Shown here in pieces: positions 2,825 to 16,231 of a DNA stretch of 23,267 nt. Position numbers and translations under genes: made by a program. Where the stretch lies: the IMG/VR virus record IMGVR_UViG_3300025120_000580, positions 1-23,267 of that record; one strand, 5' to 3'. Source of the stretch: a virus. The notes under the pieces were generated by a model. It saw only the letters and a list, made by a program, of their open reading frames with translations. It had not been told where the DNA came from and ran no database searches. The stretch's first letter is position 1, and every line of letters starts with the position of its first letter.

Positions 2825-3688
2825 ATGCCCGTTGTAAGCAAGAAGCAAGGAAAGTTTATGCAGGCGGTGGCTAATAGCCCTAAGTTTGCTAAGAAAGTAG
2901 GTGTTAAACAATCAATCGGACGAGAGTTCACTAAGGAGAAAGACATGAAAAAAGCAGTAAAGAAAATGAATATGGGTGGAATGGCAGATCGTGAAGGTCG
3001 CGCTATGGCGACTGGTCGTTATGCTAATGACCCTAGAATGATGGCGGATGCACGTGGTCGCGCTATGATGAAAAAAGGTGGTACAGTTAAAAAAATGAGA
3101 AAAGGTGGTAACACTTCTCGTATGAATGAGCTTGAAGAATTAGGTAGAGTTGATTCTGAAAAAGGCTATTCTGCTAAAGGCAAAAGAAATCTTAAAGATG
3201 AAAAAGCTCGTGTTGTAAGAGAAATTAAAAACAAAAAAGCTGGTGGTAAAGTAGGATATAAAGCTGGTGGTATGATGGCTGATAAAGAAGGTCGTGCTAT
3301 GGCAGCAGGTAAACTAAAAGGTTCTCCAGCTAAGATGGCAGATGCTAGAGGTAGAGCTATGGGTAAAGCTTTAGGATCTCCTAGAGTTGGAAAAGCAGCT
3401 AAACCAGCTAAAATGAAACGCCAAGGCGCTAATTCTAGACTTGATGAGTCATTAGGTATGAGAAGAGGCAAAGAAGCTACTAAATCTCAATCTATGAAAT
3501 CTCGTAGAGATGAATCTAGAGCTATGGCAACAGGTGGTATGCTAGCAAGAACCGGCGGTTCTTCAGCTAAAATGAAAGCTAAAGGCAAAGCTATGAAAAA
3601 AGGCGGGACTGTTAAAGGTCGCGGTAATGCATCTAAACGAGCAGACGGTATTGCTCAACAAGGCCACACACGCGGTCGTCACGTTTAA
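2825..3688 (+). CDS. Basic Gly-Gly-motif protein with internal duplication
   Basis: This is a 287-residue protein, very rich in Lys, Arg, Gly, Ala and Met. Residues 1-40 (SKKQGKFMQAVANSPKFAKK, then VGVKQSIGREF) form a block seen in other marine phage proteins. A module is duplicated: residues 50-86 and 148-184 share MAD(R/K)EGRAMA, then (K/R)MADARGRAM. Motifs of the type MKKGGTVK occur at 82-89 and 257-264. The end, DGIAQQGHTRGRHV, is shared in pattern with the protein at 6269. It starts two bases after the previous stop with only a distant AGGA, so it probably depends on coupling. The function is unknown; a virion-associated or DNA-binding role is inferred from charge and from sitting among neck genes. 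Confidence 0.72.
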   Translation: MPVVSKKQGKFMQAVANSPKFAKKVGVKQSIGREFTKEKDMKKAVKKMNMGGMADREGRAMATGRYANDPRMMADARGRAMMKKGGTVKKMRKGGNTSRMNELEELGRVDSEKGYSAKGKRNLKDEKARVVREIKNKKAGGKVGYKAGGMMADKEGRAMAAGKLKGSPAKMADARGRAMGKALGSPRVGKAAKPAKMKRQGANSRLDESLGMRRGKEATKSQSMKSRRDESRAMATGGMLARTGGSSAKMKAKGKAMKKGGTVKGRGNASKRADGIAQQGHTRGRHV

Positions 3689-4502: not shown

Positions 4503-4660
4503 TAAAGTCTAGAGGTATGGGAAGAGCACTTCCTACTAAATATAAAAAAGGTGGCACGGTAAAAGACGCGTGTTATCATAAAGTTAAAGCAAGTTATAAA
4601 GTTTTTCCAAGTGCTTATGCGTCTGGTGCTATTGCTAAATGTAGAAAGAAAGGCAAATAA
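4499..4660 (+). CDS. 53-residue basic protein, RGMG start and CYHKVK...FPSAYASG domain
   Basis: The 53 residues combine three recognisable blocks: the opening SRGMGRALPTK shared with the ORF at 4210, a Gly-Gly motif YKKGGTVK (15-22), and CYHKVKASYKVFPSAYASGA (25-44) followed by IAKCRKKGK. The last block is a conserved small domain in marine and cyanobacterial phages, and in related form in some large DNA viruses, where it often sits next to the RWFKEDW domain found in the following gene. Here the two are separate but joined by a TAATG overlap (4658-4662). Cys25 and Cys48 bracket the domain. The function is unknown. Confidence 0.75.
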   Translation: MIKSRGMGRALPTKYKKGGTVKDACYHKVKASYKVFPSAYASGAIAKCRKKGK

Positions 4661-5211
4661 TGGCAGTCCGCAAGACAGCTAAAGGAGCCGCTTTAAAACG
4701 TTGGTTCAAAGAAGATTGGAAAGATGTAAGCACCGGTAAAGCATGTGGAAGAAAAAAAGGTGATGGACGCAGTACACCTTATTGCCGACCCAGTAAACGA
4801 GTATCTAGTAAAACTCCAAAGACATCTGGAGAAATGACAGCAGCACAAAAGAAGTCTAGGATTGCTCAAAAGAAAAGTCTTGGACAACCAGCGGGTAAAC
4901 CACGTAGAGTGGCTTCCCTTACAAGGAGAAAGACAATGAAAAAAGGTGGTATGTTAAAAGCAGTACCCGAAGATAAGAAAAAAAGCTTAGGTAAATTACC
5001 TATGCCAGTCCGTAACAAAATGGGCTTTATGAAAGAGGGTGGAAAAGTTTTTAAATCTCATATGATGTATGATAAGAAAACAGGGAAAGCTGTAAAAGCG
5101 CCTACTAAAGCTAAACACTTAGAATTAAAAGATAAAGGCTATGGTCATACTAAACCTAAAAAAATGAAAGCAGGCGGTTTAGTAGATAGACAATATCTTA
5201 AAGGTAAATAA
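4660..5211 (+). CDS. Basic protein with DUF5872-like RWFKEDW domain and Gly-Gly motifs
   Basis: This is a 183-residue protein. Residues 13-57 (KRWFKEDWKDVSTGKACGRK, then STPYCRPSKRVSSKTPKT) resemble the DUF5872 family of phage and giant-virus proteins, as far as I can recall; Cys29 and Cys42 belong to it. The rest holds three Gly-Gly motifs (MKKGGMLK 93-100, MKEGGKVF 124-131, MKAGGLVD 169-176) and the C-terminal tag DRQYLKGK, which is identical to the end of the protein at 5887. The block GKLPMPVRNKMGFMKEGG (111-128) is also familiar from marine phages. It is very basic. No enzymatic motif is seen. It ends two bases before an adaptor-like gene. Confidence 0.75.
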   Translation: MAVRKTAKGAALKRWFKEDWKDVSTGKACGRKKGDGRSTPYCRPSKRVSSKTPKTSGEMTAAQKKSRIAQKKSLGQPAGKPRRVASLTRRKTMKKGGMLKAVPEDKKKSLGKLPMPVRNKMGFMKEGGKVFKSHMMYDKKTGKAVKAPTKAKHLELKDKGYGHTKPKKMKAGGLVDRQYLKGK

Positions 5212-5213
5212 TA

Positions 5214-5894
5214 ATGACTACAACAAATACGCATAACTTTAATTTAGATTTAAACTTACTGGTTGAAGAAGCATTTGAAAGATGCGGAGCAGAGTTAAGA
5301 ACAGGATATGATTTAAGAACAGCTACTCGTAGCTTAAACTTACTAACTATTGAATGGGCTAACCGAGGAATTAACTTATGGACAGTAGAACAAGGATCTA
5401 TTGCATTAGTTGCCGGGACAGCTACTTATAATTTGCCCGCGACTACCATCGACCTCATGAGCCAAGTCATAAGAACTGGGACGGGAACGACTCAGTCTGA
5501 CATAGCTATCACTAGGGTGTCAAATCCTACTTATGCCTCTATCCCAAGTAAGAATGACACGGGCAGACCGATACAAATTTATCTTGATCGACAAGCAGAA
5601 ATTCCAACAGTGACTATGTGGCCTATTCCTAATGACGCAAGTTATACCTTTGTGTATTGGTTTTTAAAAAGATTAGACGATGCAGGTACTGGTGTAAACA
5701 CACAGCATATACCGTTTAGATTTTTACCTTGTATGGTAGCTGGTCTTGCTTACTATTTATCTATAAAGATACCAGAAGCAGCACCAAGAATACCAATGTT
5801 AAAACAAGAATATGAAGAGCAGTGGCTACTCGCTTCTACTGAAGATCGAGAAAAAGCAACACTAACTATTTCACCAAGGAGTTCTTATGTCTGA
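5214..5894 (+). CDS. Head-tail adaptor-like protein (P22 gp4 / adaptor fold)
   Basis: This is a 226-residue protein with helices at both ends and a beta-rich middle (60-160). The blocks LNLLTIEWANRGINLWTVEQ (41-60), GTATYNLPATTIDLMSQVIR (68-87), then GRPIQIYLDRQ and MWPIPNDASYTFVYWFLKR, are those of a family placed with P22 gp4-like head-completion and neck proteins in marine podophages. The layout parallels the adaptor at 7264 (helix, P-x-D, beta hairpin, F/Y-Y-W/F strand, helix), so the two are probably ancient paralogues. Its role would be docking the tail to the portal ring. The middle (5401-5520, residues 63-103) has clearly higher G+C than the rest. The gp4-like name is moderately sure; a role in the neck is likely. 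Confidence 0.72.
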   Translation: MTTTNTHNFNLDLNLLVEEAFERCGAELRTGYDLRTATRSLNLLTIEWANRGINLWTVEQGSIALVAGTATYNLPATTIDLMSQVIRTGTGTTQSDIAITRVSNPTYASIPSKNDTGRPIQIYLDRQAEIPTVTMWPIPNDASYTFVYWFLKRLDDAGTGVNTQHIPFRFLPCMVAGLAYYLSIKIPEAAPRIPMLKQEYEEQWLLASTEDREKATLTISPRSSYV

Positions 5895-6267
5895 TAAAAA
5901 GAAAAAGAAATCAGGCGCTACACTTTCTGGAAGATATAGAGTGAGTGGTAAAAAACCATCAGCTAAAGATATAGCAGCACAAATAAGAGCAGACATCCGA
6001 GCGGGAATAAATTTAGAAGGAGATAATTACTTTGTTGAGCCGTATGTAAGTGGTTCAGCTTATAAAGGACCTAAAGGAAAACCACGAGCTGGAATAAATA
6101 GATATGGTATTCAAGGAGAAATTCGTCCCACAGAAAATACTTTTATTAGAGCCAGAGGAAGCATGGGCCCTAAAGGAGATAATAAACGAGGCGGGATTGA
6201 AGCAGGTGTTACATTCAAAGAAGGTGGAATGATAATTAAAGACAGGCAGTATTTAAAGGGGAAATAA
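5887..6267 (+). CDS. Small beta-rich protein with C-terminal DRQYLKGK tag
   Basis: This is a 126-residue protein overlapping the preceding gene by 8 bases, with AAGGAG ahead of ATG 5887. The N-terminus is Lys-rich; residues 22-40 form a helix; residues 66-110 alternate polar and non-polar residues (GINRYGIQGEIRPTENTFIR, then GGIEAGVTF), suggesting a beta meander, which recalls outer-membrane hairpins. It ends with the Gly-Gly motif FKEGGMIIK and the tag DRQYLKGK. The tag is identical in amino acids to the end of the protein at 4660, although six of eight codons differ. The function is unknown. Confidence 0.68.
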   Translation: MSDKKKKKSGATLSGRYRVSGKKPSAKDIAAQIRADIRAGINLEGDNYFVEPYVSGSAYKGPKGKPRAGINRYGIQGEIRPTENTFIRARGSMGPKGDNKRGGIEAGVTFKEGGMIIKDRQYLKGK

Positions 6268-6268
6268 G

Positions 6269-6697
6269 ATGGTTGCATCAGTAATAAAAAAAGTATTAAA
6301 GCCACTAACAAAAAAAATAGTGGATAAATTAAGAAAAAATCCAGAAGACCTTACTAGAGCAGAAAGAAAAGCTGTGCGCGATCACCAAAGATCAAGAGGT
6401 AAAACTTATATTAATAAAGATGGTATTAAAGTAACTAAATATCCATATATGGGGGAAGCGGGACAGATAGTTGCAAAAAGACCTAAATCAGGAAGTAAAA
6501 AATTTACAGCTGCTGAAATAAGAAAACAAAACGCACAAGAGAGAAATTTAGGAGCAAAAAACCTTCGAGAAAATCGAAAAGAAAGGACTACACCTTTAAC
6601 TGGAGAACTTGAATTTAAAAAAGGTGGTAGCGTAAAAGGTAAATGCAAAGTAGATGGTATTGCAGTACGTGGCAGAACTAAGGCTAAACATAAATAA
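6269..6697 (+). CDS. Small basic protein with C-terminal VDGIAVRGRTK tag
   Basis: This is a 142-residue protein with AAGGGG before ATG 6269. It opens MVASVIKKVLKPLTKKIVDK, similar to the start of the protein at 3700. The middle is helical and highly charged, with a block KTYINKDGIKVTKYPYMG (45-62) that looks like a short beta segment. It ends with the Gly-Gly motif FKKGGSVKGK (116-125) and VDGIAVRGRTKAKHK. The same ordered pair of motifs closes the protein at 2825, so both ends look like one portable module. Its TAA overlaps the ATG of the zinc-ribbon gene (TAATG). No function is known. Confidence 0.68.
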   Translation: MVASVIKKVLKPLTKKIVDKLRKNPEDLTRAERKAVRDHQRSRGKTYINKDGIKVTKYPYMGEAGQIVAKRPKSGSKKFTAAEIRKQNAQERNLGAKNLRENRKERTTPLTGELEFKKGGSVKGKCKVDGIAVRGRTKAKHK

Positions 6698-7065
6698 TGA
6701 GTAATAAATATACTACTAATAAGAACGCTATTGCAGATTGTGATGTCTGTGGATTTCAATTTAAACTAAAGCAATTAAAAAGTTTATTTGTAAGAGAAAC
6801 AAAAACAAATATACTAGCGTGTCCAGAATGTTGGAACCCTGACCAGCCACAGAATTTACAAGGAATGTATCCTGTAGATGATCCACAAGCTGTAAGGAAT
6901 CCAAGACCTGACCAAAGTTTTAATGACAATAACAGAACTGGGTCAAGAGATATACAATGGGGATGGGAACCTGTAGGTGGAGCTAGACCCCCAGCTAATG
7001 AATTTACACCTAATAAATTAGTAAGTTCAGGAGCCGTAGGAACTGTTACAATAACAATAACTTAG
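6697..7065 (+). CDS. Zinc-ribbon phage protein
   Basis: This is a 122-residue protein. Two CxxC pairs, CDVC (15-18) and CPEC (42-45), 27 residues apart, would bind one zinc ion as a zinc ribbon. The sequence around them (DVCGFQFKLKQLKSLF, then ACPECWNPDQPQ) and the following DDPQAVRNPRPDQS are typical of a conserved small protein located between neck genes in many podophages. The C-terminal third is different: GWEPVGG, then a beta-strand run GAVGTVTITIT at the very end, which looks like a virion-exposed or strand-exchange tail. The role is not established; being among neck genes suggests an assembly or structural part rather than a transcription factor. Confidence 0.75.
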   Translation: MSNKYTTNKNAIADCDVCGFQFKLKQLKSLFVRETKTNILACPECWNPDQPQNLQGMYPVDDPQAVRNPRPDQSFNDNNRTGSRDIQWGWEPVGGARPPANEFTPNKLVSSGAVGTVTITIT

Positions 7066-7074
7066 GAGAAAAAA

Positions 7075-7254
7075 ATGTCTAAAGAAAATCAAGAAAGAAA
7101 GCCTAAATTTAAAGGCATATATACACAACCTCAAGACGTACCTGTACCTCACGTTGCTGGTTACCCAGAAAAAAATGTTAAAACATCTGGTGTAGTAACT
7201 CGTGGTAATGGTGCAGCTACTAAAGGTACTAAAGCTCGCGGTCCATTAGCTTAA
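7075..7254 (+). CDS. 59-residue phage protein with GAATKGTKARGP C-terminal motif
   Basis: TAGGAGA precedes ATG 7075 by a suitable distance and the frame runs 59 residues: a basic start (SKENQERKPKFKG), a Pro-rich middle (QPQDVPVPHVAGYPEKNVKT) and the ending TRGNGAATKGTKARGPLA. The ending G-x-GAA-x-KG-x-K-x-RGP-x is a signature I recall from short proteins next to adaptor genes in marine and cyanobacterial podophages. The function is unknown. The gene fills the space between the zinc-ribbon gene and the adaptor gene, with 9 bases on either side. Confidence 0.75.
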   Translation: MSKENQERKPKFKGIYTQPQDVPVPHVAGYPEKNVKTSGVVTRGNGAATKGTKARGPLA

Positions 7255-7263
7255 GGATAAACA

Positions 7264-7926
7264 ATGACTTACGCAGAATTAGTGGCTCAGATAGAGTCTT
7301 ATACAGAAAATGAATATTCTACAGTAGATGTAAATACATTTATAACTCAAGCTGAAAACAGAATATTTAACTCTGTTAATCTACCTGATCTTAGAAGAAA
7401 TGATACGGGTACAATTAGTTTAGGTAACAAATACTTAAACGTACCAGATGATTGGTTAGCTACTTATAGTTTAGCTGTTATTGATAATACGACAAACGAA
7501 TATACTTTTCTTTTAAATAAAGACGTTAATTTTATTAGAGAATCTTTCCCTGATACTGATGTCGCACATTATGGGAAACCTAAATACTATGCTGTCTTTG
7601 ATGATACAACTTTTATACTCGGTCCTACACCTGATACAGGTTATGGTGCTGAGCTTCATTACTTTTTTTATCCTGAATCTATTACTACTGCCGCTAGTGG
7701 TCAGTCTTGGCTGGGTGATAATTACTCAACCGCTTTACTTTATGGGTCGTTGTTGGAAGCGAATACTTACCTAATGACCGATGCAGAGAAAATGAGTATG
7801 CTAGATAAACGATACCAAGAAGCAATGATAGAACTATTAGGATTAGGTGAGGGTAAAAATACTCGTGATTCTTATAGAAGTGGACAATCTAGAATACCTG
7901 TTAAAGGTAGTAGAGGTCCTGCATAA
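7264..7926 (+). CDS. Tail adaptor protein (phage SU10-type adaptor)
   Basis: This is a 220-residue protein. It follows the family pattern closely: helical start TYAELVAQIESYTEN, the block FITQAENRIFNSVNLPDLRR (26-45), the strand GTISLGNKYLNVPDDWLATY, then LLNKDVNFIRESFP, GKPKYYAVFDDTTFILGPTP (about 103-122), and helices with WLGDNYSTALLYGSLLEANT. Adaptors of this type form a ring below the portal and receive the nozzle and the fibres. The C-terminal tail (SYRSGQSRIPVKGSRGPA) is basic, as usual for these proteins. Its length is normal for the family. Its stop overlaps the start of the next gene (TAATG). A divergent second copy of the fold is at 5214. Confidence 0.82.
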   Translation: MTYAELVAQIESYTENEYSTVDVNTFITQAENRIFNSVNLPDLRRNDTGTISLGNKYLNVPDDWLATYSLAVIDNTTNEYTFLLNKDVNFIRESFPDTDVAHYGKPKYYAVFDDTTFILGPTPDTGYGAELHYFFYPESITTAASGQSWLGDNYSTALLYGSLLEANTYLMTDAEKMSMLDKRYQEAMIELLGLGEGKNTRDSYRSGQSRIPVKGSRGPA

Positions 7927-14041: not shown

Positions 14042-16231
14042 ATGCCTCTTAATAAATTAAAATTTAGACCGGGAATTAACCGAGATCGCACTAATCTAGC
14101 TCAAATGGGCGGATGGTATGACGGTAATATGATTAGGTTTAGAGATGGATACCCTGAAAAAATAGGGGGTTGGCAAGCTGAAACTTTTACTCGATATGTA
14201 GGTGAGGCTACTAAACTTTTTGTTTATTCTTTAGATACCGGTGCAGAAATTGCGGGGCTTGCTACTACTAAAAAAGTATATATTCGTGCTGGTACTGCTC
14301 TTTATGATATTACTCCTATCCGTGTAACTTATACTACTTCAACCACTCCTTCTACAGACAACTGTTTTACTACTAATACTACCGCAGGTACTGAAGGTCA
14401 AGTTCTAGTTACTTTAGCAAGTCATGGAGCTACCACAGGAGACTTTGTAACTTTTACTGGTGCAGTCGCAGTCGGTGGTATTACAGCCGTACAACTTAAT
14501 TTAGAGTTTGAAGTTACAGTTATTGACGGTAATACATTTACTATTGAAACTGCTGGAACAGCTACTTCAGCTGCTACAGGTGGTGGTACCGGAATTACCG
14601 CAGCTTTTCAAATTAATATTGGTACAGATACTTCAATAGCAGGTTATGGTTGGGGTGCAGGTACATGGAGTCGAGGAGCTTGGGGTTCAGGCGCAACTAC
14701 TCCAGCTATTGTTAATGTGCGTCTTATTTTTATGGACAACTTTAATAATGACCTTATTTTTAATTTAAATAATGAAGGACCTATTTACTATTGGACTTAT
14801 AGTGCAAGTTTTACTAACAGAGCAGTATTGTTAAGTTCATTAACAGGCGCAATTGCAGTACCCTCAAAAACAGAAAAAACATTGTTTGCACCAAGTGGGC
14901 ATTTATTAGCTTTGGGTGCTAGCGCTTATAGTGAAACTTCTACAGCAGGAATATCTATTACAAGTATTGTAAGTACAGGAACAACCGCTACTGTAACTAC
15001 TGGAAGCGCCCATGGATTAGCTACTAATGATTGGGTTTATCTTTTTGGTCAAACTCCTGTAATGTATTCAGGCACTTATCAAATTATAGTAACCGGTACT
15101 AGCACTTTTACATATACTCTTTTAGCTACTACTACATCACCCGCTGGAACAGCAGGAAGTTACCAAGCTATAAATTATACGGGTGGTGCATTTGATCCTA
15201 TGTTAATTAGATTTGCAGATGTTAATGCAGACATAGGGCCTAAACCAGAAGTATGGAGACCTGAATTAGCTAACTCAGCTGGGTTCTTATTTGTTAAAGA
15301 AGGTTCTAGAATTGTTACTGGCGCTAACGTAAGACAAGAAACTCTTATATGGACAGACACATCGTTAAGTACATTACAATTTTTAGGTACAGCAGAAGTG
15401 TTTGGGTTACAACTTTTATCTTCCGATACTAATATTATGGGTGCTAATGCATATGCTAGTGTTAATAATAATATGTATTGGATGGGAACCGATAGTTTCT
15501 TTATTTATGATGGTCGAGTTAATGTACTTAAATGTCCTTTATTAAAATATGTATTTGAGGATATTAATAGAGAACAAGCACAACTTGTTTATGGTGGTAC
15601 TAATAAAGAATTTAATGAAGTGATATGGTTCTATTGTTCAGGCGGAGCAGTACCTTCTCTAACAATTAACCGATACGTAATTTATAATTATAGAGACGAT
15701 ATTTGGTATTATGGTCAACTCAATAGAACTACTTGGATAGATGCTGGTATTAGTGAATTTCCATTAGCTACTTCAGGGGGTTATTTATATAGTCATGAAA
15801 ACGGCCCTAATGATGGACAACCTTTAGGTGCAGCACCAAATGCTATTAATTCTTATATTGAGTCTGCATTTATGGATATAGATGAAGGTGAATTCTACAT
15901 GTTAACTAAACGTGTAATTCCAGATGTAGACTTTACCACTTCTGAAACATCTAATCCTGTAACAGGAGCGACGATAGTTCCAACTGTTGATATGGCAATT
16001 GCAGTTACTAAATTTCCAGGAGCAGCTACTTCTACAACTGATGTAGCAGGCGCAACATTAACTCGTGGAGTAACTACTGCTACTGCAACAATAAGTCAAT
16101 ACACTAATCAAGTGTTTGTAAGAGCACGCGGACGACAAATGAATTTTAAAATATCATCAGATACTGTAGGCACACAGTGGCAACTTGGTGATACTAGAGT
16201 CGATGCTAAACCAGCAGGATTAAGGGGATAA
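14042..16231 (+). CDS. Tail nozzle (tail tubular protein B / P22 gp10-like)
   Basis: This is a 729-residue protein that starts directly after the previous stop. The opening PLNKLKFRPGINRDRTNLAQ then GGWYDGNMIRFRDGYPEKIGGW is the hallmark of nozzle proteins of this phage group, as is the end QVFVRARGRQMNFKISSDTV then GTQWQLGDTRVDAKPAG. Two inserted beta modules of one type lie at about 125-170 (SHGATTGDFVTFTG) and 314-361 (AHGLATNDWVYLFG); such inserts are often decoration domains. Residues 203-217 carry GWGAGTWSRGAWGSG, shared with the repeat protein at 10267. The middle, ANAYASVNNNMYWMGTDSFF then IYDGR, is part of the propeller core. It would form the tail tip through which DNA passes, attached to the adaptor ring. 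Confidence 0.85.
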   Translation: MPLNKLKFRPGINRDRTNLAQMGGWYDGNMIRFRDGYPEKIGGWQAETFTRYVGEATKLFVYSLDTGAEIAGLATTKKVYIRAGTALYDITPIRVTYTTSTTPSTDNCFTTNTTAGTEGQVLVTLASHGATTGDFVTFTGAVAVGGITAVQLNLEFEVTVIDGNTFTIETAGTATSAATGGGTGITAAFQINIGTDTSIAGYGWGAGTWSRGAWGSGATTPAIVNVRLIFMDNFNNDLIFNLNNEGPIYYWTYSASFTNRAVLLSSLTGAIAVPSKTEKTLFAPSGHLLALGASAYSETSTAGISITSIVSTGTTATVTTGSAHGLATNDWVYLFGQTPVMYSGTYQIIVTGTSTFTYTLLATTTSPAGTAGSYQAINYTGGAFDPMLIRFADVNADIGPKPEVWRPELANSAGFLFVKEGSRIVTGANVRQETLIWTDTSLSTLQFLGTAEVFGLQLLSSDTNIMGANAYASVNNNMYWMGTDSFFIYDGRVNVLKCPLLKYVFEDINREQAQLVYGGTNKEFNEVIWFYCSGGAVPSLTINRYVIYNYRDDIWYYGQLNRTTWIDAGISEFPLATSGGYLYSHENGPNDGQPLGAAPNAINSYIESAFMDIDEGEFYMLTKRVIPDVDFTTSETSNPVTGATIVPTVDMAIAVTKFPGAATSTTDVAGATLTRGVTTATATISQYTNQVFVRARGRQMNFKISSDTVGTQWQLGDTRVDAKPAGLRG

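Follow-up and report, generated by a model that had tools for sequence, protein, structure and literature searches.

A short C-terminal tag on unrelated basic proteins in a variable slot beside the head-tail adaptor gene of uncultured phages

Why should two proteins with unrelated bodies end in the same eight residues, written in different codons? The question is raised by an IMG/VR viral record of 23,267 bases, the whole of which was analyzed and is referred to here as the window. Two of its genes, which start at positions 4660 and 5887 (Table 1), close with ...KMKAGGLVDRQYLKGK-stop and ...FKEGGMIIKDRQYLKGK-stop, respectively, and as an initial sequence-only reading had proposed, both carry the same DRQYLKGK end after a Gly-Gly motif. 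The codon pairs of the first and second copies are GAT/GAC, AGA/AGG, CAA/CAG, TAT/TAT, CTT/TTA, AAA/AAG, GGT/GGG, and AAA/AAA; indeed, six of the eight differ and every change is synonymous, as that reading had also claimed. These synonymous differences rule out a recent DNA duplication as the source of the two tags. A degenerate DNA pattern for the tag has two matches in the window, and 100 shuffles gave none.

The bodies ahead of the two tags are unrelated: a DUF5872 domain with other modules in the 4660 protein, and a predicted six-stranded beta domain in the 5887 protein. By its N-terminal domain, the 4660 protein belongs to DUF5872 (PF19197; E 6e-14, 53 bits against a curated Pfam cut-off of 27.5). 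The model of the 5887 protein has six strands and a tail that is disordered from residue 112 on (pLDDT 62 overall), and a fold search with its beta domain gave a best match of only E 0.28.

Table 1. Positions of the tagged genes, tags, and slot borders in the 23,267-base window.
Feature	Position	Strand	Basis or description
B-tagged basic protein, same putative operon, ends DGIAQQGHTRGRHV	2825..3688	+	sequence
Tagged protein 1	4660..5211	+	DUF5872 domain, then KKSLGKLP and HMMYDKKTG modules, GG linker, tag A
Linker GGLV ahead of tag copy 1	5173..5184	+	sequence
Tag A copy 1, DRQYLKGK-stop	5185..5211	+	sequence; sense codons 5185-5208
SU10-type head-tail adaptor 1, left slot border	5214..5894	+	Pfam PF24175, E 7.5e-10; synteny
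Tagged protein 2	5887..6267	+	predicted six-stranded beta domain; tag A on disordered tail
Linker GGMIIK ahead of tag copy 2	6223..6240	+	sequence
Tag A copy 2, DRQYLKGK-stop	6241..6267	+	sequence; sense codons 6241-6264
Third slot protein, ends in alternative tag B	6269..6697	+	sequence, synteny
Tag B, DGIAVRGRTKAKHK-stop	6653..6697	+	sequence
Conserved 122-aa gene, right slot border	6697..7065	+	synteny
59-aa protein ending RGNGAATKGTKARGPLA (GG-type tail "C")	7075..7254	+	same position in many relatives

We defined tag A as DR[QN]YLKG[KR]-stop. With a TAR stop codon, this pattern matches 75 stretches in the viral collection (viral_contigs). Apart from matches truncated at a contig end, all of them terminate open frames of 70 to 245 codons. 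The genome collection (genome_contigs, 257 Gb) holds only three matching stretches, which close frames of 34, 245, and 13 codons and were used as the chance level. A search of C-termini for DRQYLKGK-type ends found many further carriers in related phage contigs, which excludes the possibility, allowed for at the outset, that only the two window genes carry the tag. With clustering at E 1e-5 and coverage of half of both bodies, the 65 distinct A-tagged proteins that were called make up 23 body clusters; a few of these proteins are contig-edge fragments, so their true number is slightly lower. An earlier clustering with nine clusters was dropped because chance similarity joined lysine-rich bodies, and a second with 18 was replaced because families were still mixed.

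The tag is all or nothing, and it is found at one end only. Among 19,403 distinct ORF ends from all collected loci, including loci fetched by the tag pattern itself, 54 match the tag at 8/8 positions, five at 7/8 (DKQYLKGK twice, NRQYLKGK, DRQMLKGK, and DRQHLKGR), none at 6/8, and three at 5/8. No internal octamer matched at 6/8 or better in 173,046 sampled positions, and a full scan of the ORFs found no internal copy at 7/8 or better. Based on the ORF-end histogram and these internal scans, tag A is a discrete, purely C-terminal module on many unrelated bodies. A chance origin is ruled out by the shuffles, the genome-collection scan, and the comparison of ORF ends with internal octamers. We did not find tag A in cultured phages, in tests that were weak (short basic queries are filtered, and five cultured records were covered); likewise, tblastn of the 5887 protein, the 6269 protein, and short tag tails against cultured phages gave no match, a result weakened by low-complexity filtering. 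A search of the open-licence literature with a small set of terms yielded no description of a phage C-terminal tag of this kind.

Small size (median 111 aa) and strong basicity (median pI 10.2) mark the proteins that carry tag A; their net charge per residue is +0.17 compared to -0.01 for 2,125 other ORFs, and a K-rich composition is common to all of them. Family scans of 23 A-tagged representatives returned DUF5872, a 42-aa module of unknown function, and two marginal matches, while PADLOC gave no match; neither approach found, for any body among these representatives, a likeness to known anti-defense or ejected proteins. The bodies are mosaics of reused lysine-rich modules with GG between them. 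For example, L096:4336-4947 fuses the front of one tagged family with the rear of another; mosaic bodies are also seen in L095 and L073.

Tag A is not the only ending of this kind, and here the initial picture of a single tag has to be corrected: it is one of at least two interchangeable tags. Tag B, of the form DG[IC]AxxGxTxxx (also written DGIAxRGxT...), is far commoner than A in the collected loci, with 159 distinct called proteins in 66 body clusters. The two tags replace each other on the same body. In the beta-domain family, L226 (tag A) and L228 (tag B) share 95% identity over 79/79 body residues, and other A/B pairs share 88% over 120 residues (L303 and L242), 91% over 100 residues (L137 and L130), and 91% over 105 residues (L104 and L078). 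There are 32 such pairs at ≥60% identity over ≥60 aa, in seven body groups, one of which includes the window's 4660 protein; in the example pairs, the swap point lies at or near the Gly-Gly hinge. We also searched for homologs of tagged bodies with 60 of the 71 A proteins as queries, leaving out the L002 fusion (described below) and the DUF5872 proteins. This returned 21 ORFs without tag A or B: three that end in variants of B, two with other GG-preceded tails, and 16 that match one and the same module, HMMYDKKTG, on which a sole A protein is built. The sequence-only reading had held that tag loss among close relatives would count against it, and here the answer is divided. Most of the 83 DUF5872 ORFs found by text pattern (L001-L083 plus the window, whose own ORF is also counted as L001) end right after the domain, without a tag, although tag A directly follows the domain in L006 and L029; in the beta-domain family, by contrast, A is not simply lost but replaced by B.

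Several other tails were also seen. Two further GG-preceded endings recur, RGxGAAxKGxxARGPxA ("C") and VRGAGMAKKGVRPCKMR ("D"), in the 59-aa window protein at 7075-7254, in L063, and at L070:1070. In the cultured phage HTVC023P (L153 gp59-gp62), glycine-rich proteins share an identical tail, IRYKFQ, and look homologous. At the other end of the B-tagged protein at 2825-3688, the first ~35 residues (MP-VSKKQ-KFMQAVANSP...), a stretch noted also in L313 and L314, have matches among the small hypothetical proteins that jumbo phages encode, including Pseudomonas phage PA7 and Klebsiella phage N1M2.

The tagged genes sit in a slot with conserved borders. On its left is a gene for an SU10-type head-tail adaptor (5214-5894), which scores 40 bits against the family PF24175 with a curated cut-off of 27, and on its right is a conserved 122-aa gene. 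Two window genes, 5214-5894 and 7264-7926, are members of the adaptor family and border tagged genes or lie close to them, while the tagged proteins themselves are neighbors, not members. In a first census of 56 loci with distinct adaptors at ≥80% identity, 47 kept both slot borders; the slot of L011 was empty, and the ORFs called in the other 46 slots all carry tag A or B, apart from four that are antisense. Since this census was biased by the tag scan, we collected the loci again via the 122-aa gene. Of the 80 loci obtained, 12 reach the contig edge before the adaptor and were left out, and 27 have an adaptor at <80% identity; the remaining 41 represent 32 distinct gap contents. Two of these 32 slots are empty and 30 are filled, and all 40 distinct genes in the filled slots are tagged: 18 with A, one with DRQMLKGK, 20 with B, and one with a DGVA form of B. 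No untagged gene was found among them with a gene caller that ignores ORFs <40 aa and favors the sense strand, and which could miss very small untagged genes. The slot beside the adaptor takes only genes ending in tag A or B, with a one-residue variant of each included. It is empty in all 27 loci with the more distant adaptor, and because it can be empty within the clade as well (2/32, and L011), the tag system is dispensable. In L002 (2812-3882), the adaptor and a tagged beta-protein form one open frame of 356 aa, whereas in the window they are separate, overlapping genes; the AlphaFold model of this natural fusion (pLDDT 43) was too poor for a docking readout.

The wider gene order places the slot among head genes. 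Profiles confirmed the terminase large subunit, portal, and major head protein on one strand of contig G001. Five tagged genes, two with A and three with B, follow the major head protein on this strand at a distance of 1.7 to 5.2 kb downstream, with other genes between. G002 and G004 have the same gene order where they are covered, and the head genes of G004 are profile-confirmed. None of the three contigs examined for gene order, G001 included, has a tagged gene on the early strand. G007, whose adaptor is 70% identical, has an empty slot; if its record is taken to be circular, it has an A gene at the opposite end of the head gene cluster, beside a 199-aa gene upstream of the terminase. L121 shows this arrangement directly, and L093 has the same neighbors. 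We infer that the 199-aa gene encodes the small terminase subunit, for which profile searches returned no family match. The nearest cultured phages to the protein at 14042-16231 are Roseobacter, Pelagibacter, and freshwater phages, at 27-35% identity in the best-covered matches. Based on these relatives, the phage group is apparently marine.

Is it the peptide that is conserved, or the DNA? The claim that it is the peptide was made for two genes, and it holds beyond them. For 24 A-type tags gathered independently of the tag itself, we obtain a pS of 0.67 and a pN of 0.12, and identity between carriers falls from 0.84 in the tag to 0.40 in the preceding octamer and 0.10-0.16 further upstream. 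A first set of non-homologous carriers gave pS 0.70 and pN 0.11, values biased by the retrieval pattern, as loci L084-L152 were retrieved via the tag itself. Peptide-level purifying selection on tag A is thus clear. The notion that the constraint lies on the peptide alone does need correction. The AAR-GGN codons of the tag closely precede the start of the next gene and look like a Shine-Dalgarno (SD) sequence; in 65/65 A genes, a start codon lies at -1 to +2 nt from the stop, and an SD-like site precedes the next start in 24/24 slot A genes compared to 10/26 other genes at the same junctions (two of the 26 are truncated adaptor fragments). The Lys-Gly codons may therefore double as the ribosome-binding site of the next gene. 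One could go further and attribute the whole tag to the nucleic acid, with AARGGN conserved as the ribosome-binding site and the rest hitchhiking or serving as a recombination anchor in a mosaic slot, which would also agree with the likeness of tag codons within one slot. However, 16 of 26 other genes at these junctions lack an SD-like site, and [KR]G[KR] closes only 16/370 other coupled genes from tag-bearing loci, so that coupling by itself does not impose this ending. Coupling cannot explain DRxYL, which encodes no SD sequence and still varies synonymously, and pN is far below pS. We consider conservation at the nucleic acid level very unlikely as the explanation, and a ribosome-binding site as the sole cause of the tag is ruled out by the coupled-gene endings and the SD comparison.

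What, then, would the peptide be for? Tag A is very probably a sorting or docking signal of some kind that acts at the peptide level. Our preferred explanation is, more specifically, a C-terminal address peptide that loads variable basic cargo into the virion, and we see its chances as about even. Such loading is favored by the slot that admits only A or B, by the tag swaps, and by bodies that change while the tag stays constant, as expected of a cargo label; the strongly basic bodies are themselves cargo-like. Through a flexible Gly-Gly linker, the address peptide would be joined to proteins of the putative head/connector operon that are small, very basic, and exchanged rapidly, and both A and B would be docked by a conserved component of the head or prohead, such as the capsid lumen, scaffold, portal, or connector. 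Any body with either tag would thereby be loaded into the particle. The bodies would be DNA-associated cargo, and might be injected and act early on the host, as T4 internal proteins do. A fuller version of this proposal is more tentative: at least two interchangeable C-terminal tags, A and B, and probably C and D too, could form an address code that works on any body and defines an open slot, by which exchangeable basic proteins are loaded into the head and some are injected against host defenses.

Three other readings of the peptide need to be weighed against virion loading. The tag may instead bind the adaptor or portal ring, or another assembly factor, with its carriers being accessory structural or assembly proteins of the head-tail junction. 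The slot does flank the SU10-type adaptor on both sides in the window, and the single frame in L002 joins adaptor and tagged protein; yet tagged genes lie elsewhere in G007, L093, and L121, toward the terminase within the head gene cluster in the case of G007 and L121, the bodies vary too much to occupy a defined structural position, and the 27 more distant phages keep the adaptor with an empty slot. We think this reading unlikely. Short C-terminal peptides are also classical recognition signals for bacterial proteases, and the tag could be read inside the cell, for example by a protease or chaperone of host or phage origin that governs turnover, or by some target in the host. The tag is, however, essentially absent from 257 Gb of prokaryote genomes (three stretches) and so is no copy of a common host tail. 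In the three gene-order contigs, all carriers that were located lie in the presumed late operon, and a purely host-side role would leave the A/B-only slot unexplained. We judge an in-cell role of this type unlikely as well. Finally, all carriers could descend from a single ancestral protein whose body diverged beyond recognition while its end was kept. Some carriers do have internal modules in common and all are K-rich, but DUF5872 and the beta domain have untagged or B-tagged homologs, the tag comes straight after DUF5872 in L006 and L029, and A/B swaps on near-identical bodies reflect recombination, not divergence. The swaps largely exclude simple descent, as judged from these alignments, and we regard it as highly improbable.

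Virion loading, if correct, would have practical value. In uncultured phages, internal and injected proteins are difficult to recognize because their bodies share nothing, and a fixed end-tag together with a slot that takes only tagged genes amounts to a sequence rule for finding such proteins. If the address code is real, sequence data would suffice to draw up a list of candidate injected proteins for uncultured phages, by searching C-termini.

Two known systems invite comparison. Encapsulin cargo is described as binding the lumen of an HK97-fold shell through a C-terminal peptide of ~10 residues (PMC7355545). The likeness lies in some ten C-terminal residues on unrelated proteins, which here are putative cargo, and in the HK97-fold shell that the cargo-loading peptides serve and the tags here would serve. 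Encapsulins are host nanocompartments built from a single shell gene, whereas here we have tailed phages with DNA-filled heads and two tags. The internal proteins of phage T4 (IPI, IPII, and IPIII; Ip1-Ip3) are reported to have an N-terminal capsid targeting sequence (PMC3012670, PMC12373910). As in T4, a short conserved peptide sits on otherwise diverse small proteins and serves to recognize family members, and, by our slot census, the genes are exchanged at a fixed locus. The T4 signal is N-terminal and proteolyzed, whereas tag A is C-terminal in every match; here, two tags are interchangeable and encapsidation is putative, with no sequence similarity to T4 claimed. The position of the signal excludes membership in the T4 class, but not a mechanism that works like that of T4. 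If the tag is a packaging signal, it would provide a small C-terminal handle for loading phage heads, the mirror image of the N-terminal T4 signal.
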